Shown here piece after piece: positions 17,688-48,692 of a stretch of 51,846 bases of DNA (the first letter of the stretch is position 1; each line of letters opens with the position of its first letter). This DNA comes from a virus. A program made the position numbers and the translations under genes. A model generated the notes under the pieces. The model searched no databases and was not told the DNA's origin. It worked only from the letters and a program-made list of their open reading frames with translations. The DNA is taken from the IMG/VR virus record IMGVR_UViG_3300017963_000334, positions 1-51,846 of that record, one strand, 5' to 3'.

Positions 17688-17924
17688 ATGGGAATCGAGT
17701 ATTGCGATAACGGTCAGTTTGTCTACGCACCCCTTTGGTGGCATAGGCAAGGATTGTCCCAAACTGCTAGTGGATACGGAGCGCAATTGACTACTCCCTG
17801 GAAGACGGAATACCAGGGGAAATTGTATCGCGTTTATCAAACGTGTTACAGCAATGCAGCTAGCTCATGGATCGTTGTTCGCGGTCAGAGGCTTCACCTT
17901 AGTAACACCACCCTGCCGGAGTAA
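17688..17924 (+). CDS. Hypothetical early protein (78 aa)
   Basis: A 78-residue protein with many aromatic residues (YCDNGQFVYAPLWWHRQGL), probably a small beta fold. The ATG at 17688 follows TAGGAGTGTACCT, a good ribosome site, 10 bases after the upstream stop and four bases before the ardA start. It belongs to the same early operon. No family was recognised; being adjacent to ArdA it may be another anti-defence protein. Confidence 0.6.
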   Translation: MGIEYCDNGQFVYAPLWWHRQGLSQTASGYGAQLTTPWKTEYQGKLYRVYQTCYSNAASSWIVVRGQRLHLSNTTLPE

Positions 17925-17928
17925 AACC

Positions 17929-18456
17929 ATGTCCCAATGTGAAGAGACTACTACCCCCAGAATCTACATTGCCTGCTTGGCATCCTACAACCGCAGTATT
18001 TTGCACGGTCGTTGGATTGACGCAATCGATGCCGATGATATCAGGGCGGAAATCGCTGCAATGCTGGCTGAATCCCCCGTACCCGGCGCCGAGGAGTGGG
18101 CTATCCATGACTACGAAGGATTCGGTAGCCTTCAGGTGAGCGAATTCGAGGATCTAGAGCAAGTCGCCGAAATTGGCCGTTTGATCGATGAATACGGCCA
18201 AGCTTTCGCAGCCTATGCCGCTCACGTAGGTATTGACTTCGCAACGGAAGTAGGTTTCCAGGAAGCCTACCGCGGCGAGTGGGGGAGCGAAGAGGAGTAC
18301 GGCGAAGAGATATTTGATGAGTGGTATGCCAACCAGATTCCGGAAAACATTCGGTGCTATATCGACTACGAAGCTTACGCTCACGACTTGTTCATGAACG
18401 ATTGCTATAGCATCGAAAATCCCGATGGAGGCGTATACGTGTTTATGAATCAGTAG
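17929..18456 (+). CDS. ardA: ArdA antirestriction protein
   Basis: A 175-residue acidic protein. It begins PRIYIACLASYNRSILHGRW followed by IDA, the characteristic ArdA N-terminal strand pattern, and continues with EEWAIHDYEGFG and many D/E residues spread along the length. ArdA proteins are elongated dimers that mimic bent B-form DNA and occupy the DNA groove of type I restriction-modification enzymes, protecting incoming DNA. The chosen ATG (17929) follows CGGAGTAAAACC. Its location near the start of the rightward operon fits expression soon after DNA entry. The identification is strong; the target enzyme in the host is unknown. Confidence 0.9.
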   Translation: MSQCEETTTPRIYIACLASYNRSILHGRWIDAIDADDIRAEIAAMLAESPVPGAEEWAIHDYEGFGSLQVSEFEDLEQVAEIGRLIDEYGQAFAAYAAHVGIDFATEVGFQEAYRGEWGSEEEYGEEIFDEWYANQIPENIRCYIDYEAYAHDLFMNDCYSIENPDGGVYVFMNQ

Positions 18457-23214: not shown

Positions 23215-23410
23215 TTGGCCGGGCGACCTGAAAGCGCATACCCGGCGAGTTAAGCGCGTAGCCAAAGCTTTTGGTGCCTACAACTATACACCGCTCTGGG
23301 CTACGCGCTTAGCCGAGATTTTTGTGAATCTCTCTGAGCATGGAAGCGAAGAGCGCAAGTTGGGTATGCTTGGACTGATTCGGCGAATCCTGGAGGGGCA
23401 AAACAAATGA
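23198..23410 (+). CDS. Small basic helical protein (70 aa)
   Basis: A 70-residue protein starting at GTG 23198 after GGAGGAAGATA, an excellent site. The start lies 17 bases inside the previous gene. Basic N-terminal region (DLKAHTRRVKRVAKAFG) and a helical remainder (WATRLAEIFVNLSEHG). Its stop overlaps the next ATG. Function unknown; coupling implies it is produced with the SprT-like protein. Confidence 0.6.
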   Translation: MPKQPNWPGDLKAHTRRVKRVAKAFGAYNYTPLWATRLAEIFVNLSEHGSEERKLGMLGLIRRILEGQNK

Positions 23411-23979
23411 CGCGCGAACAATGGTTGAATCAACTCCTAGATGCCTTGCGGCCGATCTTCCAAGGGGCTGACGCGGAAGTCCCCGAGCATGTACGAGTAT
23501 CTTGCGGCTGGCCAAGCAAGGCAGCGACGGCCAGAAAGAATCGCCGAATCGGAGAGTGCTGGGACAAGGAGCAATCGAGCGATGAACACTACGAGATTTT
23601 CGTGAGCCCAATACTCTCCGATTCGTTAGCGGTTGCAGATACGCTCGTTCACGAGCTAGTACATGCCTGCGTTGGAACGAAATGCGGACATCGCGCGCCA
23701 TTTCGGCGGCTTGCACTCGCCGTCGGCTTGGAAGGTGAAATGCGCTCTTCGAGTGCCGGAGAGGATTTACTGCTCGTACTCAAGGAGTTAATTAAACAGC
23801 TTGGCCCTTACCCTCATGGGGAAATTAGCTTCCCGGAGAAAGAAAAGAAACAGAGCACTCGCCTTCTTAAAGTGGAGTGCCCCGATTGCGGCTACACTGT
23901 ACGTACCACGCGCAAGTGGTTAGAAGTGGGGCTTCCAACATGCTGCTGCGGCAGCGCGATGTTATATCAGGAGACGTAA
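23407..23979 (+). CDS. SprT-like zinc metalloprotein with zinc ribbon (190 aa)
   Basis: A 190-residue protein. An HExxH motif (LVHELVHACVG, about residues 79-89) is followed by CGHRAPFRRLALAVGL, the histidine-containing helix that supplies the third ligand in SprT-like and zincin proteases. The C-terminal half has CPDCGY and CCCG, forming a four-cysteine ribbon, as in SprT/Spartan-type proteins. Such proteins can degrade protein-DNA crosslinks in cells; for phages the role is unestablished. Overlaps with both neighbours (ATGA, TAATG) fix the start. A second, ribbon-less HExxH protein is encoded at 28640-28939. Confidence 0.8.
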   Translation: MTREQWLNQLLDALRPIFQGADAEVPEHVRVSCGWPSKAATARKNRRIGECWDKEQSSDEHYEIFVSPILSDSLAVADTLVHELVHACVGTKCGHRAPFRRLALAVGLEGEMRSSSAGEDLLLVLKELIKQLGPYPHGEISFPEKEKKQSTRLLKVECPDCGYTVRTTRKWLEVGLPTCCCGSAMLYQET

Positions 23980-28311: not shown

Positions 28312-28643
28312 TAGCGTTCATCTCCATCGCCGTGTATAGTGCCGCGCTGCCTGCGGGCGGCAAGTATGGCTATGTTCCCCCGAGCCACATCGCCCATATT
28401 GAGTCCCAGGTCAACGCAAAGGGCAGCTATATACCAAAGGACATCACCCAACTCCTTGGCTATCTGGGTGCGCCGTTCGCCTGTCACATGGCCGTCATCG
28501 TCGCGGAAGATCTTCTTGACCTTGTTAGCAACCTCACCGGCCTCCCCGGCAAGGCCGAGTGCCGGGTAGAAGATGCGGATACTATCCGGGTAGACGGCCG
28601 TCCGGGCAGCGGCAGCCTGATAGTCGTCGAAGGTGCGAATCAT
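28311..28643 (-). CDS. MazG-like nucleotide pyrophosphohydrolase
   Basis: A 110-residue all-helical protein with the MazG signature: GLAGEAGEVANKVKKIFRDD supplying the first metal-binding ExxE pair and AKELGDVLWYIAALCVDLG the second ExxD pair. Single-domain MazG-like enzymes hydrolyse nucleoside triphosphates to monophosphate and pyrophosphate. In phages they can alter alarmone or dNTP pools. The ATGA start overlap with the zinc peptidase gene fixes the start. It lies among three other nucleotide-related genes. Confidence 0.85.
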   Translation of the reverse strand: MIRTFDDYQAAAARTAVYPDSIRIFYPALGLAGEAGEVANKVKKIFRDDDGHVTGERRTQIAKELGDVLWYIAALCVDLGLNMGDVARGNIAILAARRQRGTIHGDGDER

Positions 28644-28939
28644 TTTTCTACCTCATCTCTGAATTGTTCCCAGGCTTCGTACGCTTTCGCCATCCCGATC
28701 CCCCAGCCCTTTCCGTGATTGCCAATCTGATCGTACTCCCAAGCGTGTCCCCACTCATGCACTAAAGTGTCGAGTTGCCTATGCCTGGGATCGCGCTTGC
28801 GAATACATACGGTAATTAGGCCACTATCCGACATGCTCGTTGAGCCGTCGTCTTTCATGTCGACGCGACGAACAACTACGCGATGCTTTAGCGGCACTGT
28901 GCGCTTCAGGTGAATCACAAAACGTTCAAAGCAATCCAC
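28640..28939 (-). CDS. Small zinc peptidase-like protein (HEWGH)
   Basis: A 99-residue protein. HEWGHAWEYD (about residues 61-70) is an HExxH zincin motif, followed by the G/H-rich turn NHGKGWGIGMAKAYEAW, which commonly supplies the third ligand in phage SprT-like minimal proteases. The N-terminal part provides the short beta sheet expected before the helix. No ribbon is present, unlike the 190-aa homologue at 23407-23979. The start is GTG after GAGG. Role unknown. Confidence 0.7.
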   Translation of the reverse strand: MDCFERFVIHLKRTVPLKHRVVVRRVDMKDDGSTSMSDSGLITVCIRKRDPRHRQLDTLVHEWGHAWEYDQIGNHGKGWGIGMAKAYEAWEQFRDEVEK

Positions 28940-28948
28940 TGGGCAACC

Positions 28949-29209
28949 TCACTTTCTTGGGAGAAAACGATAACGCATGACAACCAACAGCGCCGCGGTA
29001 TTGCCGGTATAGCTCACCAGTAGCCAGGGCACCCAGCCGCACTGCAATGGGATTGCAATCAGCATGCTCACGCCTCCGACAAGCCACACCCAGAGCATGC
29101 CGGCAGAAAGCCCGTTACCGTGCCCCCGCCGCCAGCATTGGACAGCTTGCGGAATCGCGCAAACACTGTAAGCAAGGGCGCCGAGCCATCCAAGGAGTGT
29201 AGCAATCAT
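28949..29209 (-). CDS. SemiSWEET / PQ-loop-like membrane protein
   Basis: An 86-residue protein with three membrane helices (about 2-19, 36-55, 59-80). The first ends in IPQ (P20-Q21), the PQ-loop proline-glutamine pair, followed by a short RRGHG loop and GLSAGMLWVWLVGG, which matches the second helix of the family. The third helix contains Y-x-G-N, where the conserved asparagine lines the sugar path. SemiSWEETs are three-helix subunits that dimerise to pass small solutes such as sugars. A basic tail follows. The ATGA start overlaps the nucleotidase stop. Confidence 0.8.
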   Translation of the reverse strand: MIATLLGWLGALAYSVCAIPQAVQCWRRGHGNGLSAGMLWVWLVGGVSMLIAIPLQCGWVPWLLVSYTGNTAALLVVMRYRFLPRK

Positions 29210-29826
29210 GCCGCTTCCTTTCTCATCCATGGTTGCCAGTACATGGGCCCAAATAGCCTATCAAATTCCCTTGTGATATAATGTGAAGTGTTAAAATCGT
29301 GCAGGGAATTCCATGGCCTCGGTACGAGAATCGCCGAACCGCCCGCCTGCCGGAAGGCTTGCACATTTTTATCCGTATCGTCAATTAACAGGGCATTCGG
29401 ACTCGCACAGGCATACTTAGAAGTTCCAATGAAACATTGCTCCTGAAGCCATTGCGGAAGGTGGGTTCGTATCCATGCTACTTTCGCCGAGGCAACATGA
29501 TTTCCGACTTTCCGCGGGGCTGCGGTCAGAATGAAGATGTTCTCTTGGCCGACAAGCGTTTCACACAGGGCGAGCAGCCAAGAGAATTCCTGCGATTGCG
29601 GGACAGTAGCCCAGAATTTCGCTGGGAGTATATTCCAGAAGGTTGCCTGCGTGAAGACAAACGCCTTCTGTAATGCGTTGGCTGCGCGGATAATATCGAA
29701 TCCCCATGCGGAATCGTACTTGCCATAATCGAATTTTTCTACGGGGCATCCGACCCAGCGAAGGGCAGATAAGGTAAACGTATTGAGTACGTCGTCCAAA
29801 TCGAGAAAGATCTTGGTTGGTCTCAT
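29206..29826 (-). CDS. HAD-family 5'(3')-deoxyribonucleotidase-like protein
   Basis: A 206-residue HAD protein. Motif I is DLDDVLNTF (D9 nucleophile, D11 acid), motif II ILTAAP, a lysine-containing motif III in SAKVAWIRTH, and motif IV IDDTDKNVQAF. This matches the deoxyribonucleotidase branch that dephosphorylates dNMPs. Acting after a MazG-like enzyme, it would complete dNTP to nucleoside breakdown. The start overlaps the stop of the dATP/dGTP-type gene. Alternative: a phosphatase of other small phosphate esters. Confidence 0.8.
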   Translation of the reverse strand: MRPTKIFLDLDDVLNTFTLSALRWVGCPVEKFDYGKYDSAWGFDIIRAANALQKAFVFTQATFWNILPAKFWATVPQSQEFSWLLALCETLVGQENIFILTAAPRKVGNHVASAKVAWIRTHLPQWLQEQCFIGTSKYACASPNALLIDDTDKNVQAFRQAGGSAILVPRPWNSLHDFNTSHYITREFDRLFGPMYWQPWMRKEAA

Positions 29827-37959: not shown

Positions 37960-38742
37960 TTAGGAACTCATTGCCTGACTTACAGCACCCATAAACGCTT
38001 CCCATGACAGCGGTAGCTCGTAGGGCAAACGCCCGTATACGCCTCGGCCACCACCTGGATGAGCTGGACGCTTTTGCGTGAAAAGGAATCGCTGCCCCCC
38101 GGAAATATCCATACCGAGATGCTTCTCCTGGCCAAAACCGATATCCTCCTTTTTGACTACGACTTTCGTGTTACAAAATAGAATGCAATCCGCCCAGCGA
38201 TACAAGAGATTCGCCGCCCTCGCATCGAGGTCAAATTGGTACTGATCGTAAGAAGGCCCAGCCGGGTCGTCGAATCGCTTGACCTTGACATGGCCGATGA
38301 CAATCGAAGCCATGTTTCGCTCAGCCCGTAACGAATCAAGCCCCGTTAGGACTGTGCGCCACCAAGTCAATGCTTCCGTATATCCCTTCGCGTAGCCGCC
38401 ACCGACCTTTTCAATCGACGAGGCATTGCCATTCTCCTGACAGGTTTTCTGCCACACGAGTGATTCAAAAGCAGAAGCGCTATCCAAGACGAATGTAGCG
38501 TAGTCATGCTCCTGAGTGTATAGAGACACGATAACATCGAGGGTGTCTTGGTACTGTTGGGCCGGAGGAAATTTCGGAACCGTGAATTCGTCAATCCCCT
38601 CTTCGCCGCGCACCGGAAGGATAACGGGACGATTCGACGAAGCCGCGAAAGTGCTCTTACCAATCTTCTCGACACCCAGTAAGAGTATTCGCGGTGGGCG
38701 CGTAATTGCATCAGTGCGAAGTGACGAAAGATCAAATGCCAT
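37960..38742 (-). CDS. Sak4/RecA-like ATPase (AAA_24-type)
   Basis: A 260-residue ATPase with Walker A GVEKIGKST (23-31) and a Walker B region (YATFVLDSAS, about 78-88). The pattern (NRPVILPVRGEEGIDEF after Walker A, SIVIGHVKVKRF later, FLFTQKRPAHPGGGRG near the end) matches the short RecA-like phage recombinases of the Sak4 group. These promote single-strand annealing with a partner SSB-like protein, here the DUF669-type neighbour. GAGAGGGAAACG precedes ATG. The gene overlaps the upstream 72-aa gene by 11 bases. Confidence 0.85.
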   Translation of the reverse strand: MAFDLSSLRTDAITRPPRILLLGVEKIGKSTFAASSNRPVILPVRGEEGIDEFTVPKFPPAQQYQDTLDVIVSLYTQEHDYATFVLDSASAFESLVWQKTCQENGNASSIEKVGGGYAKGYTEALTWWRTVLTGLDSLRAERNMASIVIGHVKVKRFDDPAGPSYDQYQFDLDARAANLLYRWADCILFCNTKVVVKKEDIGFGQEKHLGMDISGGQRFLFTQKRPAHPGGGRGVYGRLPYELPLSWEAFMGAVSQAMSS

Positions 38743-38950
38743 CGTTTCCCTCTCGGATTTCGATACGAAAAAATTCCTCGTCTGCGTTGTCGGAAATCAT
38801 GGTTGCCACAATGTCCGCAAGCAACGCCTCAAACGATTCGCCTGGACCGCCTTCACCACGTTCCTCAGGCCACCCCGGGAAGGTAATCTCCTCGACCGTA
38901 CCGAGGTCGGCCTCGCCCGTCTCGGTCACTAGAAAGACATGCGGTCTCAT
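38732..38950 (-). CDS. Small acidic protein (72 aa)
   Basis: A 72-residue acidic protein (GTVEEITFPGWPEERGEGGP, then ADIVATMISDNADEEFF). It starts in an ATGA overlap with the single-span membrane protein gene, so it lies at the boundary of the envelope block and the replication block. Function unknown. Confidence 0.6.
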   Translation of the reverse strand: MRPHVFLVTETGEADLGTVEEITFPGWPEERGEGGPGESFEALLADIVATMISDNADEEFFRIEIREGNDGI

Positions 38951-39195
38951 TCCTCCTCTCCTGTATCTGTGTAATACGGCTCCCCGGTAATCGCCGAAGC
39001 GAGATTATCGAACGATTGGGCGAGAGTCTTCAGGGACCGATAGAAATCTTGTCGAGTTGCCTGAAGCGCCTCCAGGAAGCTCTCTCGTTCTTGCGGCAAT
39101 GCGCGAGTCAGAAGATACCAGAGGGCCCAGCCGAGAATCGCCAAGGCTCCTCCTTGGATTGCGAGAGCTTCGACGATTGAGGCTGCAATTAGCAT
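38947..39195 (-). CDS. Single-span membrane protein (82 aa), holin-like
   Basis: An 82-residue protein. One membrane helix (residues 8-29: VEALAIQGGALAILGWALWY, then LL) is followed by a helical charged cytosolic or periplasmic part (QERESFLEALQATRQDFYRS). The start ATG at 39195 follows GGAGAAAGTAAC. It is next to the thioredoxin-like lipoprotein gene. The topology is compatible with a small holin or a spanin-like anchor, but the long helical tail also fits a membrane-tethered partner. No conserved holin motif is visible. Confidence 0.55.
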   Translation of the reverse strand: MLIAASIVEALAIQGGALAILGWALWYLLTRALPQERESFLEALQATRQDFYRSLKTLAQSFDNLASAITGEPYYTDTGEEE

Positions 39196-39196
39196 G

Positions 39197-39550
39197 TTAC
39201 TTTCTCCGTGCCAGACAGAGGGCATGCCGAAAGTTGTATGCGCGACTCCAGCCCCCAAGCGGGGTAATTACGACATAGCAAGGCACCCTATCAATGCGGT
39301 AATGATCTACCAAATCTGGCACATCGTCGACATTGTAAGTACGTATGTATCCGCCTTCGCGCTTGTACGCCTTGACTAATTCGGTCTCGCATTTGCACAT
39401 CTTGCACCAAGGTGCAGAGAAATACAGAATCCGATAAGTCGGCCTCGGTCGTTGGCATCCCAGTAAGATTGAGCACACTAGCGCCAACATGCCCGCGGCA
39501 ATAATGAGACAGATGAGATGTTCAGTCACAGTCACGGAGACGCGCTTCAT
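39197..39550 (-). CDS. Thioredoxin-like lipoprotein
   Basis: A 117-residue protein. N-terminal signal with a lipobox LLGC (C32), so it should be anchored in a membrane outside the cytosol. A thioredoxin fold follows: SAPWCKMCKC (C49-x2-C52), then a helical part and the cis-proline segment VPCYVV. The CxxC and cis-proline are intact. The ATG at 39550 follows GGAGGAGAAAATT; six in-frame upstream codons are excluded. A redox role for envelope proteins is inferred, and it sits near cysteine-rich secreted peptidases. Confidence 0.75.
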   Translation of the reverse strand: MKRVSVTVTEHLICLIIAAGMLALVCSILLGCQRPRPTYRILYFSAPWCKMCKCETELVKAYKREGGYIRTYNVDDVPDLVDHYRIDRVPCYVVITPLGGWSRAYNFRHALCLARRK

Positions 39551-39567
39551 AATTTTCTCCTCCGCCA

Positions 39568-39606
39568 ACCCTGGGCTCGCGCACTCGTCCGGCGCGAGCC
39601 CAGGGT
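39568..39606 (-). terminator. Very strong stem-loop (15 bp) between envelope genes
   Basis: Arms 39568-39582 and 39592-39606 are exact complements (ACCCTGGGCTCGCGC in the left arm) with a 9-base loop. It lies between the 127-aa gene and the thioredoxin gene. The bases after it on the minus strand lack a U tract (TGGCGGAGGAG holds the next ribosome site). It may be an RNase-stop or attenuation hairpin rather than a full terminator. Confidence 0.6.
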
Positions 39607-39624
39607 ACCAGCTCCCCCCTCGCC

Positions 39625-40008
39625 CTATTCCTCGTCAGCCTCAACCTCTGCGAGTCTCGCCGCAACATAGGCTCGCCCCTCGTCGGTCCTCAGCTTGGCA
39701 TTGAGCACACTGGCAAAGACTTTCTCAAACTCGTCCAGGACGGCCCGCTCGCCAGCGAGGAACAACTTCGTCACTTCGACAACATGCTCCCCCATGCCGC
39801 TATAATCGCCGACCGAATAGTCGATCAGTAGATCAGGGATGCGCACGAGTCCATACTGCGAAAGCACCCCTGCCAGTTTGGCGGCAGCGCGGCGCCGGTC
39901 CTCGACACGAGTGTCGAACTGGAAACCTCGTTTAAACAGCTGGCGACCGAGCCAAACGCCGACGGCAGTGACGATCACAGCCAACAAGACAGTAGACAGC
40001 AAAGACAT
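39625..40008 (-). CDS. Membrane-anchored helical protein (127 aa)
   Basis: A 127-residue protein with an N-terminal membrane helix (residues 3-22: LLSTVLLAVIVTAVGVWLG) and a helical remainder with charged segments (EDRRRAAAKLAGVLSQ, YVAARLAEVEADEE). An inner-membrane anchored helical domain of this type can be a spanin-like or lysis-accessory protein. The site GGAGGAAAAAGT precedes the ATG. It lies between a thioredoxin-like protein and a thioredoxin-like anchored protein. Function unknown. Confidence 0.6.
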   Translation of the reverse strand: MSLLSTVLLAVIVTAVGVWLGRQLFKRGFQFDTRVEDRRRAAAKLAGVLSQYGLVRIPDLLIDYSVGDYSGMGEHVVEVTKLFLAGERAVLDEFEKVFASVLNAKLRTDEGRAYVAARLAEVEADEE

Positions 40009-40034
40009 ACTTTTTCCTCCAATTCGGATTCGGA

Positions 40035-40652
40035 TTACTCTTGATACATTTCAACGGCCTGCCAGACTGCGCCCCCAACCAAGCCAGCCAGGCCGGCTCC
40101 AAGGATCATAAGCACTTCCCTCCATGGGAAAAGCGGCACCTGCGGCGGCGCAGGAACTGCCACTAATTCCTCTAATTCCTCCTCTAATTCCTCCTCTGGT
40201 TCCTGCTCTTGCTGCTGCTGCTGATTGAGCGGACAGCATCTCTGGCGAAATTGCTGAAACCTTTGTCGCCACGGCAATTGCCCCGCCAGAATAGATCGGC
40301 GGAGCGTGCGGTCCAATGCCTGAGCTGAGCCAGGCAAGTATTCCGCGGCAGCTTCGTAAATCACGACGCCATCCGGTTGCTGTACGCGCACCGTTGGGAG
40401 CCCGTTGATATTCGGAGCGTATCGTTCGCGATAGATCGCAGTCCCCGCCTTGATCTTGTGATAGCGCACTTGCCGCGCTAATTCGCTATTTTCAAACCAG
40501 GCTGTCAATTGCTGGAATTGCACATCCGATTTCTCGCCGACAATCGAGATGTGCAATCGCGTATCTTCCGGCTCAGCAGATTGGCACGCACCGCACATGA
40601 TGACTCCAAGCGCGAGTGCCGCCAGGATCATCACCCCACATCGTCTCCGCAT
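40035..40652 (-). CDS. Secreted or anchored thioredoxin-fold-like protein, no CxxC
   Basis: A 205-residue protein. The N-terminal hydrophobic signal (MRRRCGVMILAALALGVIMC) is followed by a thioredoxin-fold-like pattern (LHISIVGEKSDVQFQQL, then NINGLPTVRVQQPDG with a cis-proline-like LP) lacking the catalytic CxxC, then a Q/E-rich linker (QQQQQEQEPEEELEEE) and a C-terminal membrane helix (VLMILGAGLAGLVGGAV). The ATG at 40652 follows GGAGGTTGAG; the longer in-frame region upstream is excluded. A structural, non-redox thioredoxin-like domain anchored to the envelope is inferred. Confidence 0.6.
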   Translation of the reverse strand: MRRRCGVMILAALALGVIMCGACQSAEPEDTRLHISIVGEKSDVQFQQLTAWFENSELARQVRYHKIKAGTAIYRERYAPNINGLPTVRVQQPDGVVIYEAAAEYLPGSAQALDRTLRRSILAGQLPWRQRFQQFRQRCCPLNQQQQQEQEPEEELEEELEELVAVPAPPQVPLFPWREVLMILGAGLAGLVGGAVWQAVEMYQE

Positions 40653-40663
40653 CTCAACCTCCG

Positions 40664-41224
40664 CTAAGGTAATGGTGAGGCGGGATTGTACAGCGGGACG
40701 AACGCCCAGCCGCCAGATTTCTTCCAATCCCGCAAAAAGACTTGCCTCGGAATCCGCTTGTATTTCTTCGGTGAATTCGTATCCAATAGATAGACCGCCT
40801 CCGCAGACATATGCACAAGGCATACGGCATGAGCGCCGCCATGGATAACCACGACGGCTCCGTATCTTTCCCGGCAAGCCCACTCCAGGAACTCTACCGA
40901 GCCGTCCGACTCTACTTGGTGCCGCACCCCCGCCGCGGCAAGGCGCGCCGAAAACCCGCTTGGCACTTCGCCGCCACCACGAGTTTGCCGTAGCCGATTA
41001 GCCAAGGTATATTGTTCCTGCCACCGCAAGAGTGCAATCGTTGACGCCCACATGCACGATCCGTTCTCTTGCCGCCCCTGCGACCAATTACGTGGCCGTA
41101 ATGCCAGTGGCGGATTGACGATTGGTACCTCGGGCGGGTACAGCTTGGCGTAGCTGTTTACAGCCCAGTCCAGGGACATGAACACCAAACAGGCGCAGGC
41201 TACGAAGGCGAGTGTTTTTTTCAT
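40664..41224 (-). CDS. C39/papain-like cysteine peptidase, secreted
   Basis: A 186-residue protein with an N-terminal hydrophobic signal or anchor (LAFVACACLVFMSLDWAV). The catalytic pattern is papain-like: NGSCMWAST with C57, GGAHAVCLVH with H132, and LLDTNSPKK with D148/N150. The order (C, H, D/N) and spacing suit C39-type or related papain-fold peptidases. Its ATGA start overlaps the 87-aa gene. Target may be host envelope or phage proteins. Being beside NlpC/P60-like and trypsin-like genes argues for an envelope-cleavage module. Confidence 0.7.
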   Translation of the reverse strand: MKKTLAFVACACLVFMSLDWAVNSYAKLYPPEVPIVNPPLALRPRNWSQGRQENGSCMWASTIALLRWQEQYTLANRLRQTRGGGEVPSGFSARLAAAGVRHQVESDGSVEFLEWACRERYGAVVVIHGGAHAVCLVHMSAEAVYLLDTNSPKKYKRIPRQVFLRDWKKSGGWAFVPLYNPASPLP

Positions 41225-41484
41225 TTGGCTTCCCTGCGGACTAGGATTCTAATTCCTGTTTCGGCATCCATTTCCCATACGGGAATCCCCTGAAAGAACA
41301 TCGCAGGCCCCCGGGGCTTTGACATCTCATCGGGAAAAAGAGTAGCCAGGACATGTTCGTGCTGATCGCGTGCAATTGCATACTCTAATTCGCCTAAGGT
41401 AATACCAACGCAATCAGGCTTCTCTTGCACTAATTGCTTGAGCTTCTTTCGCAGGTAGTGCCAGGCATGAGCGGATATTCTCAC
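41221..41484 (-). CDS. Small hypothetical protein (87 aa)
   Basis: An 87-residue protein with a basic helical N-terminus (HAWHYLRKKLKQLVQEKP) and a compact mid-part (LGELEYAIARDQHEHVLATL). GTGA overlap at the start (GTG after AGGAGATTCAA) and ATGA overlap at the end couple it to both peptidase genes. It may be a peptidase inhibitor, chaperone or adaptor. No family was recognised. Confidence 0.6.
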   Translation of the reverse strand: MRISAHAWHYLRKKLKQLVQEKPDCVGITLGELEYAIARDQHEHVLATLFPDEMSKPRGPAMFFQGIPVWEMDAETGIRILVRREAK

Positions 41485-42131
41485 TTGAATCTCCTCGGTT
41501 CCAGAAGTACCCCATCGCGGCGCTCCCTGCGTACAAGTAAGTTCGGACTCCAGCGACTTGCACTGCTACCGTTCAGGAGGCCGATGTGCTTTTGGGCGGC
41601 ATGAACATACTCAGAACAGAAGAAGCTTGTAAGATCCTCCGGCCGAAAGAGTGATTCGAGCCATGAGAATCCAATGCCACCAGCGCGAAAGGCACCAATG
41701 GCGTCGTAGTTCGTGCCGAGATGTCCCAGCAGGTAATGAAACAGCCGCTCTGATTCCAGCAGACGCAACTCGCGATACAGTGGATAGTGCCACACCTTCC
41801 CTTTGTATTCAGCAATCCGATCAGCCGGCTTGTGTCCTTGCACGCCTTTCGTAATCTCATCCCGGAAATAGCATTCCAGGGAACATGACATCGTGGATTC
41901 AAACAGAACAAGCGTACCCGCCCTAGGGGGGCACAAATAGAAACCCCCGGGGAGGCCGTCCGGCCAAAGTGGATACCTGGGGACCTCAGCCACGATTCCA
42001 ACATGACTGAGGCTCCACCATGGCAGTCCGTAGGTGGCCATGTTAATTCCTGCACTCCACCAGGAATCCCCCGAGAAGCCAAGAACGTCACCAGCCTTGA
42101 GATCACGAAGGTAAGCAATACTGCTCCACAT
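41481..42131 (-). CDS. Permuted NlpC/P60-like (YiiX/YaeF-type) hydrolase
   Basis: A 216-residue protein. LKAGDVLGFSG and LSHVGIVAEV (H43) come before SFFCSEYVHA (C172), giving a histidine-before-cysteine order, the circularly permuted form of the NlpC/P60 papain-like fold found in YiiX/YaeF-type proteins. Such enzymes cut peptide bonds, for example in murein or lipid-linked substrates. No signal peptide is evident, so it may need a holin or be packaged. It sits between the signal-bearing protease and cysteine peptidase genes. An endolysin role is possible. Confidence 0.7.
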   Translation of the reverse strand: MWSSIAYLRDLKAGDVLGFSGDSWWSAGINMATYGLPWWSLSHVGIVAEVPRYPLWPDGLPGGFYLCPPRAGTLVLFESTMSCSLECYFRDEITKGVQGHKPADRIAEYKGKVWHYPLYRELRLLESERLFHYLLGHLGTNYDAIGAFRAGGIGFSWLESLFRPEDLTSFFCSEYVHAAQKHIGLLNGSSASRWSPNLLVRRERRDGVLLEPRRFK

Positions 42132-42134
42132 AGT

Positions 42135-43100
42135 TCACTTCTCGACGTGAATGGAATGAAACAAGTCCGCCTCTTTCCCCCTGAAAGGCCACGGAAGCCA
42201 TGACTCGCCGGCTGGTGCAGTCGTGTCTTCGTCAGAAGCCTTAGGCATGGTGGGATTGAATTCCAGCGGCAAGTTAACCTCAATTTCGCTCGCCGGACGT
42301 TCCGCATTCGGATCGAAAATCCAACGCGCATCAATCTCATCCGCCCATTGCAGGATACTCCGGATCGGCACCATCCAATGAAAGCTATCTGCTCCGCGTG
42401 CGCCAAGAGTGAGCACCCCAACAAGCCGCCCATCCTCCTGGAGAGCGATCAAACCGCCGGAAGAACCACCCATGGCGGGGCAAGTAATTTGATCGTAAAC
42501 GCCGTGCTCGCTGCCGCCGAAATGCGGAATCCTGGCACCGACGCGGGAAACGATACCGCTCGTTAATGAGCAAGTGCCGCCAAGATCCTTGCCGCCAGGC
42601 GCGCCGCAATGAAAGAGAGCAGTCCCCGGGCGGGGGAAAGACTCTCCGAGGTAGAAGGTTGCGCCGTCAGAAAACTCGCCGTCAATTCGCACACGCAGTA
42701 GCGCTACATCCCGCGTAGCATTGACGCTCATCACTTTGGCATCATACCTACGCTCACCAACTACACGCCCATCAACCATGCGCTCCTGTACGATTTCCGC
42801 GTCTCGGTAAGTTACCAACTTGCGCGTGCTCCCCTTGCCATTGATCACATCTTCCACCTGCCGCAGATTACTCACGACATGCTCCGCCGTGAGGACCCAA
42901 GTAGTCATCTGCTCGCCAATCGGTACGAGAACGATCGTGCCCGACCCTTGCACGGAACTGTACCCGCCAGATGAGCAATAGATATTGACGCTGATCGCTT
43001 GGAGATCGGCCCCAACGCTCGTCGGCTCATCAGCCGCCATCAATGTGCCACAACTCAAGCAGAATAGTACGGTCAGCAACCACCCCAAGCCTCGACTCAT
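42135..43100 (-). CDS. Trypsin-like serine protease with signal peptide
   Basis: A 321-residue protein. The signal sequence (MSRGLGWLLTVLFCLSCGTL then MAAD) is followed by a chymotrypsin-fold catalytic domain with H74 (LTAEHVV), D131 (ATRDVALLRV) and S214 (MGGSSGGLIAL). The mature protein should act outside the cytosol. The C-terminal region (after about 265) is acidic, P/E-rich. The ATG at 43100 follows AGAGGAGAAAGAAG; the in-frame upstream extension is excluded. No PDZ domain is present, unlike DegP. A phage-encoded exported protease of this kind is unusual. Confidence 0.8.
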   Translation of the reverse strand: MSRGLGWLLTVLFCLSCGTLMAADEPTSVGADLQAISVNIYCSSGGYSSVQGSGTIVLVPIGEQMTTWVLTAEHVVSNLRQVEDVINGKGSTRKLVTYRDAEIVQERMVDGRVVGERRYDAKVMSVNATRDVALLRVRIDGEFSDGATFYLGESFPRPGTALFHCGAPGGKDLGGTCSLTSGIVSRVGARIPHFGGSEHGVYDQITCPAMGGSSGGLIALQEDGRLVGVLTLGARGADSFHWMVPIRSILQWADEIDARWIFDPNAERPASEIEVNLPLEFNPTMPKASDEDTTAPAGESWLPWPFRGKEADLFHSIHVEK

Positions 43101-43335: not shown

Positions 43336-46300
43336 TTAGTCCTGCGGGGGCGCATTCTCAGAAGCAACCCACCAAAGGAAGAGACGATCCCGTAATTCGC
43401 CTGCGTAATCACGCACAATCTGCAATTCCTTGCGCTGCTCCGCCGTCAAATACTCGTGCTCGAACTCATACTCATCTCGGTCACTTAGCCGGCTAGCAAT
43501 CGGGTCGAGCCGCTTTAGGAATGCCTTAAACTTCCTCACTCCTTTTATGCCGGGATGCTTCTGTTGGAATGCGTCTTTCCATTCCACGAAAGCATCGTAA
43601 TCTTCCGCCATGGCAGCATCACGCGCCTGCTTGTACTGCGATACCGGGTAGACCCCGCCTTCCTCTGTGCCTTTCGATTTCAGGAATCTCGCACGGGCAT
43701 TGTAGATTTCGGAATAGGCAGACTGCCGCGGATCGACAACTCCCACGAACCAGCGTTGCCAGAAATGCGGCCGGGCCCGGTGTCCTTCGCCGACGATATT
43801 CCCCTTCATCCATTTGTAAATGTCGCCATAGCCGATTATGTTAGCAATCGCCACGTCGCGCTCAACGGCCCGCGGCTGAAATGGATTAGGAAAGAGCGAC
43901 TGTCCAGTGATGCCCTCGAAGAGGCCCTTCACATCAGGCCGCAAAAGGCCAATCATCTTTTCCATTGGGGCTAAGGCAACTTCTTTCGCTACATCTACAA
44001 CACCAGCCTGCCCCGCTCGCCATTCGTCCCACATGGACAGCGCTTCGTTTACGCCAAACCACTCCAAGAAATCCCCAAGGGCTCCGACATTCCGAAAGAC
44101 CCGAACGGTACCATCCGAGTTGGGGCCAAGGAGAATATGAGGATTTGCCTGATCGTATTCACCTAGACCGTCTTCGTCATCACGACCGAATAGCATTGGA
44201 TAAATCAGGTTATTCCAAGTCCACCAGGCCGCATACAGCCCGCCGATGCGCATCATGGCAGTAGCCGCCAGTACAGCCCCCATCCTGCGACCTTCACCAG
44301 CCTGGAATGCGTTGATTACCAATCGCGGGTATCGCTTGAGATTGATTTCCTGGAAAGCCCAGAAGGGAAAGAGATTCCTTCGTATGTATTCACCGGCTGC
44401 GGTCATATTGCCATAATCTCCAAGGAGATCACGACTCAATCTGGCCGCTGCCACTTCCGGGCCCATTTCCCTGGCGAGCACGCGCACCGCATTGCGATTG
44501 GAGGCGCCGTAATGTGTTACTTCACCTTTCTTGACCTGTTCCAAATAAGTCAAGAAGGCAGCATATCGAAGGAGATTTTCGCGCATCTCAACATGGGGGC
44601 GAACCAGTTCCATGTATAGTCGTGCTGGATTTCTCAGTAGCGCTCGCTGCTCAACTGGTTTTAGTCGCCGAAACACCTGCATTTCGGGGGTTTCAGCGAC
44701 TTCAGCCGTAAAGAAGCCAGCCGATACAACACCAAGATCGCGAGCTAAGCGCAATTCAGGCGACAACTCCAAACGATCGTGATGGTATTTCCATAACTCC
44801 TGCGTTGCCCTTGGCATTGCCCTGAGAATATAAGGGTTCGCCGCCAAAACCGGGTCCATATCGCCTGTGAAATTACGCACATTGTAAGGCACAATCCGCG
44901 CTGGATTCAGAAGTACAAACGCCTTCCAGCCGTTCATCGCACGACGATGTAGCTGCTTAATCCAATGAGCCTGATCGGTGACCTTCACGGCATCCAACTG
45001 ATCGGCTAACTCGACCGGAATCACAATGCGCTTATGCGGCCCCCCCAGGGCGGCTACCTGACGAACCTCTTCAGCCGTTAGATTCGCCGCCTCAATCGCA
45101 CCCTCTTGCAATGCTACGCCGATCTTCTCCGGAATCGTGAAGGCACGATAGAAAACATTACCAGGCTGGGGCTGCCAGAATGTGAGATCAGGATCGCGGG
45201 CGACGGCTTCCTCAAGAGTTAACTCCTGTTCCGCGGCCCTCTCTCGCATCTCTTCCGTATGGTCATATCGCTGCGTCAAATCTCGAAGCAACTCATCCTT
45301 GCGCAGTTCTGCCAGAGCATCAGCAAGCCATTCCGTTTCCGAAATCACATAATTCGTGCTATAGTCGAACTCCTCGGGTAGCGCATCCCCCTCGACGCGC
45401 CGTCGCTGAAACCCCCTCTTCTGGCGTCTGGCGGCGCTCACCTTACCAGCCTGCCGCTTAGCTTCCTGCACGACGCGAACATGCTGATGGAAATACGCCT
45501 CGGGATTGTCGAGTACGCGCTCAGGCAAAAAGCCGCGCTCAACTAATTGCATCACCGTTTCTCGAACGATCTTTCCACGAGCTTCCAGGGCCCTTTTGAC
45601 GGTGGGGGTGGCCTCAACTTGGGCTTCGATTTTAGACCTATACTCTTCGGCCTGCTGTTGACTCTCGAAGCCGAATCGCAACGGTTGCCCCTCCTCCAGC
45701 GCAGCGAGTTGATTCCTTATTACTAAGGCCCGCTCGAACAATTCTGTCTGCATCGGACCAAGCGGATCAACCACTGATGCCACTGTACGCACAGCCTCAT
45801 CAACTGCGGCCGTTGGCACAACCTTCAAGAGTCGAAAGAACTCCTGCGCCGGTATGAAATCATCAGTCGGAGGGAGATGCACTTGGGGGCGAGTAGCATA
45901 CTTCCAAGCAGTCTGCACCCCGCCGGATACTCGTTTCATAAATCCCATTCGCCCCGGAGTTCGGGCAGCGTTTAAACGCCTCTCCACTTCCGGGTCCTCA
46001 ACCCGGGCCACCTCTTCATCCTCGCCAATCACGTCAGGCCGCTCGCGCTCACCCAATCGCTCGCCAATCGCCTGGGCTCCCGTCTCCTCGGCCAATATCC
46101 CGGCCGTCTCAGGCCGTGCCTCCTCGGCGGCCCGTTGCGCTTCCAGGCGGGCGGACAACTCCGCAGAAGGCAGCTCACCCCAGCTTGACGGTTCTGCCTG
46201 AAGCTCCCCAGCCGCTTCATAGGCCGTCTCTGCGACCGACGGCTCCTGAGCCATTTCGGCTGCAATCGCCTCTTCCTGGGCCGCCTGCGGCGTCTCACTG

Positions 46301-47670
46301 GGTACCTCAAGATGCTGCCGAGCCTGTTCGTTAATCTCCCCCTGGAGTCTTATCTCCGCAGCTAGCCGCTGGACCCCCTCTCGGCGTTGCTCCCTCGACT
46401 CCCACCCTTCCTCCGGCAGCCCCCATTTCACCCGAGTTCGGCGTGACGGAATCTTACCCTGGTCCGCGTACTCTAAGATTTCCTGTTCAATCCGGGCTCC
46501 CTTCGCCCGAACCTGAGCCGCGCGAGCTTCAGTCGCCATCTGAGCCATCCCTGGACCGCCACCCAGAGCAGCAATCCCCGGCAGGGCATCCTTCATTTCC
46601 TGCCACATCGCCGGGGCAACCGACGAAAAGACTGGCCCCTCGACTTGCTCGTCAGTCAAGGCAGCGAGGTACTTCCCCACATCCCGAACACCCCGCTGTA
46701 TCCCCTCCTCGGTTGTCTCAACCCCTATCCGCTCCAGGGCATCAATCGCTTGGCCAATTGCCGCCCGAATAACAGGTTTCCGTTGTACCAATTTGGATAG
46801 CCGCGCTCCGCCATATTTCCGGATTGCTTGCGAGATTGCCCGCCTAGCTGTCCCCTTGACTGGCTGCGCAACCGCCCCCTTCGACATGCCGGTAGGGTCG
46901 ATATTCAGTAGCTCAATCATCGACTCTGCGGCAGCCGTCACGACGGCAGCGGCAAAGGCCGTCTTCGGTTCAAGCCCCATCTCTAAGTAATCCTCCCGCC
47001 GCTCCGGGAAGAGACGAGCGGTCCAGTAGCCGGCCATAGCTAGGGGGCCGCCACCCATGCCGGCAAGAAGTCCAGCGGAGAGATCGGGGGCCATGCCTGC
47101 TGCGCCGGCAGCAGCCTTCAGGGAGAGTGGAGCATCCTTCCCAAGGCTGGGATCGGCTCCTTGTTTGGCAGCCTCAAGCTGGCGCTTAAATTGCACCTCT
47201 TCGACAGTGCGACCACGCCCTTGAAGCCAGTCGCGAAAATCCCGAGCTGCGCCAGTCATGGCAGCGCCGGCTTCCGCAAAGGCGCCGCCTACTTGCTGGG
47301 CCCGTACCCCGAGCCGACCGCCCACAATTGCCGGCTCCTTCAGTCCCGGCTTTACCCAGCCCGACTCGGCATACTGCTTTTCCTTAGCCCACGACTGGGC
47401 CTGGGCAATTCGACCAACTTCCTCAATGAGCCATTGCCGCTCTGCGGGATCGGTAATTTCCTTCAGGGCCTTCGCTGAATAAGTCTCACGAGTCCCAGAG
47501 AGTGGCGCAACAAGCCCCCAGGCGTACTTATCGCGTAGGTAACTCCGGCGTCGTTCGATTGCGTCCCCTGTTCCGCTAGCAATCTCCTCCACCTTGGGGT
47601 CGAATTGCGGTGGTGGTGTAGTCGCCTGCCCGCCGCCCACAATGGCGAGCACTTGAGGATCAAATGGCAT
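43336..47670 (-). CDS. Giant internal / polyvalent-type virion protein (1444 aa)
   Basis: A 1444-residue protein, the largest in the window. The N-terminal third is alanine/glycine-rich with helices, including LAGMGGGPLAMAGYWTARL, possibly membrane-active. The middle (about 440-560) is E/A/Q-rich and low in order. The last 700 residues have LLNPARIVPYNVRNFTGD, YIRRNLFPFWAFQEINLKRY and several hydrophobic helices, resembling C-terminal 'large polyvalent protein' domains (LPD38-type). Such proteins are packed in the head and ejected with DNA to cross the envelope and act inside the host. The ATG at 47670 overlaps the upstream stop (TGATG); GTG 47673 is an alternative. Exact domain calls need profile search. 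Confidence 0.7.
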   Translation of the reverse strand: MPFDPQVLAIVGGGQATTPPPQFDPKVEEIASGTGDAIERRRSYLRDKYAWGLVAPLSGTRETYSAKALKEITDPAERQWLIEEVGRIAQAQSWAKEKQYAESGWVKPGLKEPAIVGGRLGVRAQQVGGAFAEAGAAMTGAARDFRDWLQGRGRTVEEVQFKRQLEAAKQGADPSLGKDAPLSLKAAAGAAGMAPDLSAGLLAGMGGGPLAMAGYWTARLFPERREDYLEMGLEPKTAFAAAVVTAAAESMIELLNIDPTGMSKGAVAQPVKGTARRAISQAIRKYGGARLSKLVQRKPVIRAAIGQAIDALERIGVETTEEGIQRGVRDVGKYLAALTDEQVEGPVFSSVAPAMWQEMKDALPGIAALGGGPGMAQMATEARAAQVRAKGARIEQEILEYADQGKIPSRRTRVKWGLPEEGWESREQRREGVQRLAAEIRLQGEINEQARQHLEVPSETPQAAQEEAIAAEMAQEPSVAETAYEAAGELQAEPSSWGELPSAELSARLEAQRAAEEARPETAGILAEETGAQAIGERLGERERPDVIGEDEEVARVEDPEVERRLNAARTPGRMGFMKRVSGGVQTAWKYATRPQVHLPPTDDFIPAQEFFRLLKVVPTAAVDEAVRTVASVVDPLGPMQTELFERALVIRNQLAALEEGQPLRFGFESQQQAEEYRSKIEAQVEATPTVKRALEARGKIVRETVMQLVERGFLPERVLDNPEAYFHQHVRVVQEAKRQAGKVSAARRQKRGFQRRRVEGDALPEEFDYSTNYVISETEWLADALAELRKDELLRDLTQRYDHTEEMRERAAEQELTLEEAVARDPDLTFWQPQPGNVFYRAFTIPEKIGVALQEGAIEAANLTAEEVRQVAALGGPHKRIVIPVELADQLDAVKVTDQAHWIKQLHRRAMNGWKAFVLLNPARIVPYNVRNFTGDMDPVLAANPYILRAMPRATQELWKYHHDRLELSPELRLARDLGVVSAGFFTAEVAETPEMQVFRRLKPVEQRALLRNPARLYMELVRPHVEMRENLLRYAAFLTYLEQVKKGEVTHYGASNRNAVRVLAREMGPEVAAARLSRDLLGDYGNMTAAGEYIRRNLFPFWAFQEINLKRYPRLVINAFQAGEGRRMGAVLAATAMMRIGGLYAAWWTWNNLIYPMLFGRDDEDGLGEYDQANPHILLGPNSDGTVRVFRNVGALGDFLEWFGVNEALSMWDEWRAGQAGVVDVAKEVALAPMEKMIGLLRPDVKGLFEGITGQSLFPNPFQPRAVERDVAIANIIGYGDIYKWMKGNIVGEGHRARPHFWQRWFVGVVDPRQSAYSEIYNARARFLKSKGTEEGGVYPVSQYKQARDAAMAEDYDAFVEWKDAFQQKHPGIKGVRKFKAFLKRLDPIASRLSDRDEYEFEHEYLTAEQRKELQIVRDYAGELRDRLFLWWVASENAPPQD

Positions 47671-48692
47671 CACTCGCTCGCTAGATGTGCATTTACATAT
47701 GTCTTATAGGCTTCCAGATAGGCAGCCTTCTTATTGTCGGGCACGGAATGGTATCCGCCAGGAAACTGCCGCAGATACGCCTGCGCGAATCCAACTTCCG
47801 GGGGGAGAGTCTTGTCAATATCTAAGACGGGAATGCCAGACTCCTCAACGGCATCCCACCAATTTCCCCCAGGCTCATCGGCACCGTAGACCATTTCCAT
47901 AAGTTGATCCACTTCGTGACGATTAAGGAAACGCTGCCCGGTCTTCTCCCCCATTTTGTCAAAGGTATCCACTCGCAGCTTGGCAAATTCCGTCAGAGTT
48001 CTTCGGCGATCCGCCTCGATTGCGTGTTGCCGTTCACGTTCAGCGTCCTGCCGCTCTTGTTGTTTCTGCGCTTCCAGATATTCCGGCATTTTTTCTGGAG
48101 AAACAAGCACCCTGGGATTGCCACTACGGTCATACCCCATCAGGCTACCAGTGCTCTCGTCTACCCAAGGCTCCATTGGACTGCGCCCCTCGGGGAATTG
48201 GATTTTATTCGGATCTTTCGGAACCAATGAAGGTTGAATTCCTGCCATCTGCATTTCGATCCCCTGGACGGCTCGCATCTTCTCATCGTCGGAGAAGGAA
48301 TCGCTTGACATAATCTGCTGTTTACCTTGCTCCAGTCGGGCAATTTCGCGCCTTTGCTGGGCAGTGAAACGTGATTCCCACTGGCTGGCGGCAGCCCGAG
48401 CTTGCTCACGGATACGAGTAATCTCTTGCTCATATCGCTGCTCTTGCAACTCCCGCGACAAACCAGCCTGAACGGCCATACGATCCAAAGCGAAGTCAGC
48501 CGCCTGGGATTGCATCTGAGCCCTAGCCTGAATGTCTGCCTGCTGGAGATTACGCTGCTGCGCAAGCTGATCTAAGCGAGCTTGATCTTCCCTACGTCGG
48601 TCAAGGTCGCGCTCTGCCCGCTGAGCTGCGCCGGCCAGGCCCGCAGCGATCAATGCCGGGCCAGTTACATCATGTCGCACTTCAATCGGCAT
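47670..48692 (-). CDS. Coiled-coil internal virion protein (340 aa)
   Basis: A 340-residue protein. About residues 20-150 are heptad-rich (RDLDRRREDQARLDQLAQQR, QRYEQEITRIREQARAAA, FTAQQRREIARLEQGKQQI), and a second charged helix lies near 210-240. Less helical C-terminal third (GGNWWDAVEESGIPVLDIDK). GGGAGCCTAAGA precedes ATG. Placed between the 189-aa helical protein and the 1444-aa protein, it matches the internal core proteins that form the ejected channel in short-tailed phages. Role inferred from position and coiled coil. Confidence 0.65.
   Translation of the reverse strand: MPIEVRHDVTGPALIAAGLAGAAQRAERDLDRRREDQARLDQLAQQRNLQQADIQARAQMQSQAADFALDRMAVQAGLSRELQEQRYEQEITRIREQARAAASQWESRFTAQQRREIARLEQGKQQIMSSDSFSDDEKMRAVQGIEMQMAGIQPSLVPKDPNKIQFPEGRSPMEPWVDESTGSLMGYDRSGNPRVLVSPEKMPEYLEAQKQQERQDAERERQHAIEADRRRTLTEFAKLRVDTFDKMGEKTGQRFLNRHEVDQLMEMVYGADEPGGNWWDAVEESGIPVLDIDKTLPPEVGFAQAYLRQFPGGYHSVPDNKKAAYLEAYKTYVNAHLASE

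Follow-up and report, generated by a model that had tools for sequence, protein, structure and literature searches.

A conserved five-gene block with two thioredoxin-fold proteins, possibly a late egress module, in phages of Planctomycetota

We identified a genuine and conserved gene set in phages whose hosts are Planctomycetota. Lysis is its most likely predicted role, and with moderate confidence we interpret the block as a late egress (lysis) module made of non-canonical parts, perhaps redox-controlled. The block was found on the minus strand of IMGVR_UViG_3300017963_000334, positions 1-51,846, and this whole stretch of 51,846 nucleotides is referred to below as the window (Table 1). Neighbourhood clustering revealed a core of five genes in a fixed order: C92 (a permuted papain-like hydrolase), a C39-like peptidase, Trx2, TM127 and Trx1. 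All seven features of the original prediction were recovered on the minus strand, with coordinates identical or very close to those it gave. Its picture of a three-peptidase block held in part: the block is envelope-directed and conserved, but the core consists of these five genes and the trypsin-like protease lies outside it.

Table 1. Features in and around the block, in window coordinates
Feature	Position	Strand	Remarks
AAA_24 (Sak4-like) recombinase	37960..38742	-	PF13479, E 1.2e-38
g72, small protein, no family match	38732..38950	-	Between block and recombinase gene
TM91, small single-span protein (QGGALAILGWALWYLL), helical tail	38947..39225 (alternative end 39195)	-	Possible holin
Trx1, CxxC thioredoxin lipoprotein	39197..39550	-	Core gene 5
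TM127, single span	39625..40008	-	Core gene 4
Trx2, CxxC-less thioredoxin-like, anchored	40035..40652	-	Core gene 3
C39-like cysteine peptidase, 186 aa	40664..41224	-	Core gene 2
g87, 87 aa, no family match	41221..41484	-	Start and stop codons overlap C92 and C39
C92, permuted papain-like (YaeF/YiiX-type) hydrolase, 216 aa	41481..42131	-	Core gene 1
Trypsin-like protease	42135..43100	-	PF13365; signal peptide; companion, separable in relatives
1445-aa protein	43336..47673	-	Probably an ejected internal virion protein, judged by size and position

The same gene order and strand were observed in 77 C39-bearing loci by neighbourhood clustering. Trx2 was present in all 77, TM127 in 76, Trx1 in 69 and C92 in 67, counts that come from loci chosen by C39 presence and include several truncated contigs. 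Related phages, to which the original prediction had looked for the same set, kept it in order: it was seen in the near relatives L003, L004 and L007 as well as in dozens of distant phages, and the block is therefore far beyond chance. Completeness of IMG/VR contigs is not assured. Searches of annotated phages at the nucleotide and protein levels gave no match to the block, and the literature on planctomycete phage lysis and on thioredoxins in lysis cassettes did not describe this gene set.

Two unrelated phage backbones bear the block. In the window type, it comes after the internal virion protein gene; a homolog of the 1445-aa protein precedes it in L003, homologs lie upstream in seven loci in total, and a Sak4-like recombinase follows the block in L003, L004 and L007. 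In the siphovirus type, it is flanked by TerS-like and TerL genes, with the position before TerL observed in 55 loci. The window TerL had no relative in eight records, in a search run without a positive control, a result that fits unrelated backbones. Promoter and terminator scans gave results at chance level. The places before TerL and after an internal virion protein are late-gene positions where lysis genes commonly lie, and such placement on two backbones counts for the lysis reading. The same positions, directly after the large internal virion protein in window-type phages and also in G414, and between TerS-like and TerL genes elsewhere, would suit proteins that serve virion assembly or DNA entry, either by maturing or translocating ejected internal virion proteins or as particle-borne components. 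We regard this as decidedly improbable: nearly all homologs have signal peptides, lipoboxes and C-terminal spans, features that indicate the producing cell's envelope, and the flanking structural genes vary with the backbone while the block remains constant.

The Planctomycetota host proposed in the original prediction was borne out by integrated copies of the block, which were found in one 444-kb planctomycete contig and two single-contig chromosomes. Some of the block phages are thus temperate. In divergent chromosomal prophages, the structural operon still includes the C39-like peptidase and Trx2 together with a small span protein, which also favors the lysis reading; in the G422 chromosome, a further protein with a coiled coil and a single span overlaps the C39 start. 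A fit to a protein-based, disulfide-rich envelope had also been suggested. However, planctomycetes possess peptidoglycan sacculi that are fragmented by lysozyme (PMC4432640); the protein wall premise is outdated and this part of the prediction fell away. The absence of common lysozyme-type endolysins was supported, as six common wall-hydrolase families (PF01510, PF13539, PF00959, PF01464, PF08291 and PF00877) had zero matches in 30 phage records. Bacterial controls were positive for these six families, the GH19 search had no working control, and endolysins outside the six control-backed families could be missed, which counts against the lysis reading; two of the Pfam scans listed 25 families each. 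In the window, no canonical endolysin family was found.

The C39-like peptidase has an N-terminal signal or anchor in the window phage and a lipobox in approximately half of its relatives. Multiple alignments showed that C57, H132, D148 and N150 are invariant in 67 homologs, and C57, H132 and N150 are kept even in distant prophage copies. Its structural model (pLDDT 88) had the C39-like peptidase 3erv as the best PDB match in Foldseek (3.3e-5), and the peptidase domains of PCAT1 and ComA were also among the best fold matches. Among viral models (BFVD), the top match was the endolysin of a Gordonia phage (2.2e-4), followed by further lysins and by lysozymes of phages. The window protein matched no Pfam C39 family at E up to 1. 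Judged by its model, it is C39-like in fold and outside the Pfam C39 family, with a putative peptidase role. A similar case is the N5 domain of mycobacteriophage LysA, which also matches the B. anthracis peptidase 3erv best (PMC3314691, Table 1); both are cysteine peptidases of phage origin and belong to the same fold family. However, LysA is modular, with other catalytic or wall-binding domains, whereas the block C39 is a single-domain, secreted or lipidated protein encoded beside thioredoxin-fold proteins. Another example is PeiR of the Methanobrevibacter provirus phi-mru, described as a C39 lytic endopeptidase, among peptidases requiring reducing conditions (PMC6189367). Like the block C39 it is a C39-type enzyme of a provirus, but it carries pseudomurein-binding repeats and targets archaeal pseudomurein, and the excerpted description mentions no thioredoxin partner. 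Two observations count against the lysis reading: no wall-binding domain was seen, and the block C39 is secreted or lipidated whereas ordinary endolysins are cytosolic.

C92 has a permuted catalytic order, H43...E78...C172, which was invariant in the alignment of 59 homologs. An N-terminal hydrophobic segment was present in none of the 59 and the window protein has no signal peptide; the protein is predicted to be cytosolic. For its model (pLDDT 87), the only Foldseek matches with E < 0.001 were chains of 3kw0 (best, 2.8e-5) and of E. coli YiiX (2if6, 2.5e-4). A PHROG assignment as enoyl-CoA hydratase-like was dropped in favor of the structural match to YiiX. The window C92 did not match Pfam PF05708 (Peptidase_C92), which was matched by 8 of the 59 homologs at E up to 0.1 (best E 7.1e-4). 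The permuted residue order and fold are shared with YiiX/YaeF (Peptidase_C92) and with Tox-Act1-type phospholipases, and permuted NlpC/P60 enzymes are known to act on lipids, one of them being a phospholipase toxin (PMC12994826, PMC3142127). Unlike YiiX/YaeF, the block C92 is phage-encoded and has a constant place in a late operon, and the window copy lies below Pfam detection. In an unrestricted scan of bacterial and archaeal genomes, the C92 profile had two matches, both in planctomycete assemblies, and sequences of the block may therefore be useful as markers by which to recognize planctomycete viruses in metagenomes. The profile search found no C92 in the G422, G414, G366 and G390 copies, which counts against the lysis reading.

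The two thioredoxin-fold proteins differ in their redox motifs. Trx1 of the window has the lipobox LLGC and the active site WCKMC, and its profile matched solved thioredoxins (best 5e-15). The CxxC motif was present in all 69 Trx1 homologs and WCxxC in 66 of them, with WCxxC and the cis-Pro invariant in 8 aligned members, and by its sequence Trx1 is a member of the thioredoxin family. Trx2 consists of a signal peptide, a thioredoxin-like domain, a Pro/Glu-rich linker and a C-terminal membrane span; hydrophobic segments were present at the N-terminus in 58 of 60 homologs and at the C-terminus in 57. CxxC was absent from the aligned place in every compared member except L210, a distant member with GCAPC at this place. 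The Trx2 profile had no match in PDB, and we infer a thioredoxin-like fold from GCAPC in L210 and a conserved cis-Pro motif. A longer Trx2 ORF (40035-40883) was rejected as an artefact of upstream read-through into C39; the likely ATG is at 40652.

TM127 has one N-terminal span, present in 63 of 63 homologs, followed by a domain of approximately 100 aa that is predicted to face the cytosol and matches no family. It may be considered holin-like by position and topology only. Homologs of TM91 were detected in L003, L004, L007, L036, L037 and L039, all of them window-type phages, and the L004 copy gave a non-significant hit to a holin PHROG (E 0.11). Profile searches with TM127 and TM91 revealed no significant holin family match, which also counts against the lysis reading. 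TM91 and a 90-aa protein of G422 resemble BhlA- or XhlA-type holins, but this identity was set aside as resemblance only, the profile searches being non-significant.

In the lysis model, the block would replace the common endolysin with other parts that are expressed late. TM127, joined in some phages by further small spans like TM91, would time or open the inner membrane. The secreted C39-like peptidase would act on the wall by cleaving peptidoglycan peptides or proteins linked to the wall, and the cytosolic C92 would attack membrane lipids or acylated lipoproteins. Trx1 may keep the catalytic cysteine of C39 reduced in the oxidising periplasm, in which case lysis may be redox-gated, and Trx2, whose redox motif is lost, would be a membrane-tethered partner. 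The trypsin-like protease would be an optional helper. A requirement of C39-type enzymes for reducing conditions, as given for PeiR (PMC6189367), would explain a co-encoded periplasmic thioredoxin. The full version of thiol-controlled lysis, with a lipidated C39 kept active by Trx1, a pseudo-thioredoxin partner and a lipid-acting C92 replacing the endolysin throughout the group, is a tentative proposal that we rather doubt. Similar to canonical holin-endolysin-spanin cassettes, the block is late, compact, located beside packaging genes and composed of membrane protein, enzyme and lipoprotein. In contrast to them, it has no detected muralytic family or significant holin match, and it contains two thioredoxin-fold proteins.

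The original prediction had left lysis and exclusion side by side; lysis is the better reading and exclusion its main rival, though an unlikely one. Here the block would remodel the envelope of the host, either to exclude superinfecting phages or to modify the surface in the prophage state, for example with lipoproteins and anchored thioredoxin-fold proteins that block or degrade the receptors or ejection machinery of competitors. Lipoproteins and periplasmic proteins with a single span make up most of the block, as is typical of exclusion proteins, a secreted protease often co-occurs, and the temperate nature of some block phages is also consistent with this function. However, exclusion genes are usually small and variable, whereas the block keeps its set of several genes constant on unrelated backbones and lies inside a late structural or packaging operon rather than in a separate prophage-expressed unit. 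Under exclusion, moreover, the block phages would have no lysis genes that we could identify. A further reading, to which we assign a small probability, is non-lytic chronic release by local loosening of the envelope with survival of the cell; lysis is the norm for tailed phages that have complete morphogenesis modules, which counts against it. The block does have envelope enzymes and no identified muralytic enzyme, and chronic phage release from a planctomycete has been reported (PMC10945688), but that phage is 21.9 kb in size, extrachromosomal and not shown to bear the block.

Planctomycetes are widespread and cell-biologically unusual, and phage exit from them is little described in the literature searched. 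If the lysis reading is true, their phages break the envelope without common wall hydrolases, perhaps via redox chemistry. Egress can now be tested on defined genes, on their conserved catalytic residues and in two chromosomal prophages.

The trypsin-like protease matched Pfam Trypsin_2 (PF13365) with an E value of 5.8e-15 and contains the triad motifs AEHV, DVALL and GGSSGG. It was detected in 21 of 28 block-bearing virus records, often in a non-adjacent position. The original prediction had treated it as a main member of the block; it was dropped from the core, being elsewhere in the genome or not found in many relatives. Its profile matched the catalytic domains of Deg/HtrA proteases (~1e-8). 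Unlike these proteases, it is phage-encoded and not fixed in the block, and its Pfam scan listed no PDZ domain. Among the small proteins, g87 had no Pfam or PHROGs match, and neighbourhood clustering revealed no family at its place in distant relatives; its start and stop codons overlap C92 and C39 by 4 bases. Another small protein, g72, had no family match in Pfam or PHROGs and was kept in L003 and L007.

In this linear phage contig from IMG/VR (51,846 bases), the block lies on the minus strand in the order trypsin-like protease, C92 (a permuted papain-like hydrolase), g87, C39-like (a secreted cysteine peptidase), Trx2, TM127, Trx1, TM91 and g72, flanked by a 1445-aa probable internal virion protein on one side and a Sak4-like recombinase on the other. 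C92, g87 and C39 are joined by 4-base start-on-stop overlaps, which suggests a single transcript. Within the block, Pfam recognized nothing apart from the protease and some weak matches to thioredoxin, and PHROGs contributed little beyond Pfam.

The original prediction suggested looking for the same set in related phages, and tblastn located the whole core in three of them (L003, L004 and L007), with the positions of C92 and the protease swapped relative to the window in L004. The C92-C39-Trx2-TM127-Trx1 set was also detected by tblastn in five further contigs (longest 75–91 kb); searches there with other genes of the window gave a tail-fibre-like match at most. Profile searches of IMG/VR yielded 77 loci for C39 and 114 for the protease, of which 80 were retained. 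When profiles were mapped on all loci, gene order and strand were nearly always identical. Among the 77 C39-bearing loci left once repeats had been removed (one contig contributes two, and several contigs end at the block edge), Trx2 was present in all 77, TM127 in 76, Trx1 in 69 and C92 in 67. The downstream neighbor was TerL in 55 and the Sak4 gene in 7; upstream, 38 loci had a TerS-like gene and 7 had the internal virion protein. Homing-type HNH genes split the block in some phages. One 103-kb contig (IMGVR_UViG_3300050333_000165) contained two separate cassettes, L065 and L070, ~70 kb apart, reflecting a duplication, two joined phages or an assembly artefact. The protease was detected in 21 of the 28 virus records with a cassette and was located elsewhere in the genome in siphovirus-type cassette phages. 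One phage contig (L005) had the protease, and the cassette was not found there.

The C39-like model (pLDDT 88) best matched structure 3erv, followed by several papain-like proteins, including bacteriocin-leader peptidases. Against viral models, a Gordonia phage endolysin ranked first and other lysins and phage lysozymes lower, all with modest scores. Like the C39-like model, mycobacteriophage LysA domain N5 matches the B. anthracis C39-like peptidase (3erv; PMC3314691). For the AlphaFold model of C92 (pLDDT 87), the only PDB matches below E 0.001 were 3kw0 and E. coli YiiX; residues H43, E78 and C172 were invariant among homologues, some of which reached PF05708. Profile and motif comparison identified Trx1 as a thioredoxin lipoprotein. 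Trx2 has no CxxC and retains the cis-proline; a distant member (L210) carries GCAPC at the aligned place. Predicted topology was nearly constant among homologues: an N-terminal hydrophobic segment in 54/67 C39, all TM127 and no C92 proteins. Nearly every Trx2 protein has a span at each end.

The original prediction saw no classical lysozyme-type endolysin, and scans of the window detected none. Amidase_2, M15_4, M15_3, Phage_lysozyme, SLT and NLPC_P60 had zero matches in 30 phage records, with positive bacterial controls; GH19 also had none in phage records, but its control was negative as well. No endolysin was found among the 25 Pfam families listed for the 91-kb relative, or among the 25 listed for the prophage of the planctomycete chromosome G422. 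As far as tested, the block differs from canonical lysis cassettes in lacking a recognized endolysin. Searches of publications on planctomycete phage lysis and on thioredoxin in lysis cassettes turned up no account of the set, and no counterpart was found in annotated phages.

Because of its late position, its envelope topology, the connection between C39 and phage lysins and the lack of a common endolysin, we favor a lysis or egress module; roles in superinfection exclusion, in the virion or in chronic release are possible alternatives. The block could plausibly act in the manner of a lysis cassette. One account describes C39-type lytic peptidases as requiring reducing conditions (PMC6189367), so the Trx1 lipoprotein beside secreted C39 would make sense as its activator. 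Permuted enzymes of the C92 type cleave or bind lipids (PMC3142127; PMC12994826), and one relative acts in lipoprotein acylation (PMC7387801); C92 may act on membrane lipids or lipoproteins, and TM127 could be holin-like. The argument from a protein-based wall is outdated and unneeded: planctomycete peptidoglycan is lysozyme-sensitive (PMC4432640), and the substrate may therefore be ordinary wall peptide cross-links.

One genome scan identified two relatives, each in a planctomycete assembly. The first is on a 444-kb contig, with a tyrosine-integrase-like gene at ~6.4 kb and phage genes after it. Past ~93 kb, cellular genes begin, those for heavy-metal efflux among them. A C39 profile search of 392 genomes of the planctomycete phylum detected C39 in five, two of which are single-contig chromosomes, of 7.70 Mb and 6.96 Mb, that harbor integrated prophages. 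Both prophages carry a reduced block (C39, Trx2 and a small span protein), adjoining TerL in G422 and following an 1825-aa internal virion protein in the other chromosome, G414. Restriction of the cassette to Planctomycetota is supported but not proven, because this search was confined to genomes of that phylum. In G422, a 90-aa protein with a coiled coil and a single span overlaps the C39 start. The layout of the two small coiled-coil/span proteins in the table resembles XhlA-type lysis proteins; a profile search with them gave zero significant matches.

Cassette phages also encode additional proteins (table). The PQ-loop type of small transporter is unusual in phages. Also out of the ordinary for a phage are the TROVE/Ro60-like protein and the Band_7/SPFH membrane protein of the 90.7-kb relative G006 (L013–L017).

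Features observed in cassette-bearing genomes and in contig L005
Location	Strand	Feature
Window 17854-18456	+	Probable antirestriction protein of the ArdA type (PF07275 match at 1.3e-36 in the scan of window ORFs; ORF assigned by motif)
L217:17604-18179		ORF similar to window ArdA, G414 prophage region
Window 23407-23979	+	SprT-like zinc metalloprotease-type protein; relatives in other cassette phages
Window 28640-28939	-	SprT-like zinc metalloprotease-type protein
Window 28949-29230	-	93-aa protein, probable source of PQ-loop repeat Pfam match
L005:6402-7115		Another permuted NlpC/P60-looking gene, upstream of protease (judged by eye)
L008:6999-7481		HNH/AP2 homing-type gene between C92 and C39, as in several phages
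L010:10438-11046		HNH/AP2 homing-type gene between C92 and C39
L010:18070-19053		Long collagen-like Gly-X-Y repeat protein within structural operon; relatives in other cassette phages
L068:10086-10373		Small coiled-coil protein with C-terminal span, adjoining block
L214:8551-8823		Small coiled-coil protein with C-terminal span, adjoining block (G422 prophage)
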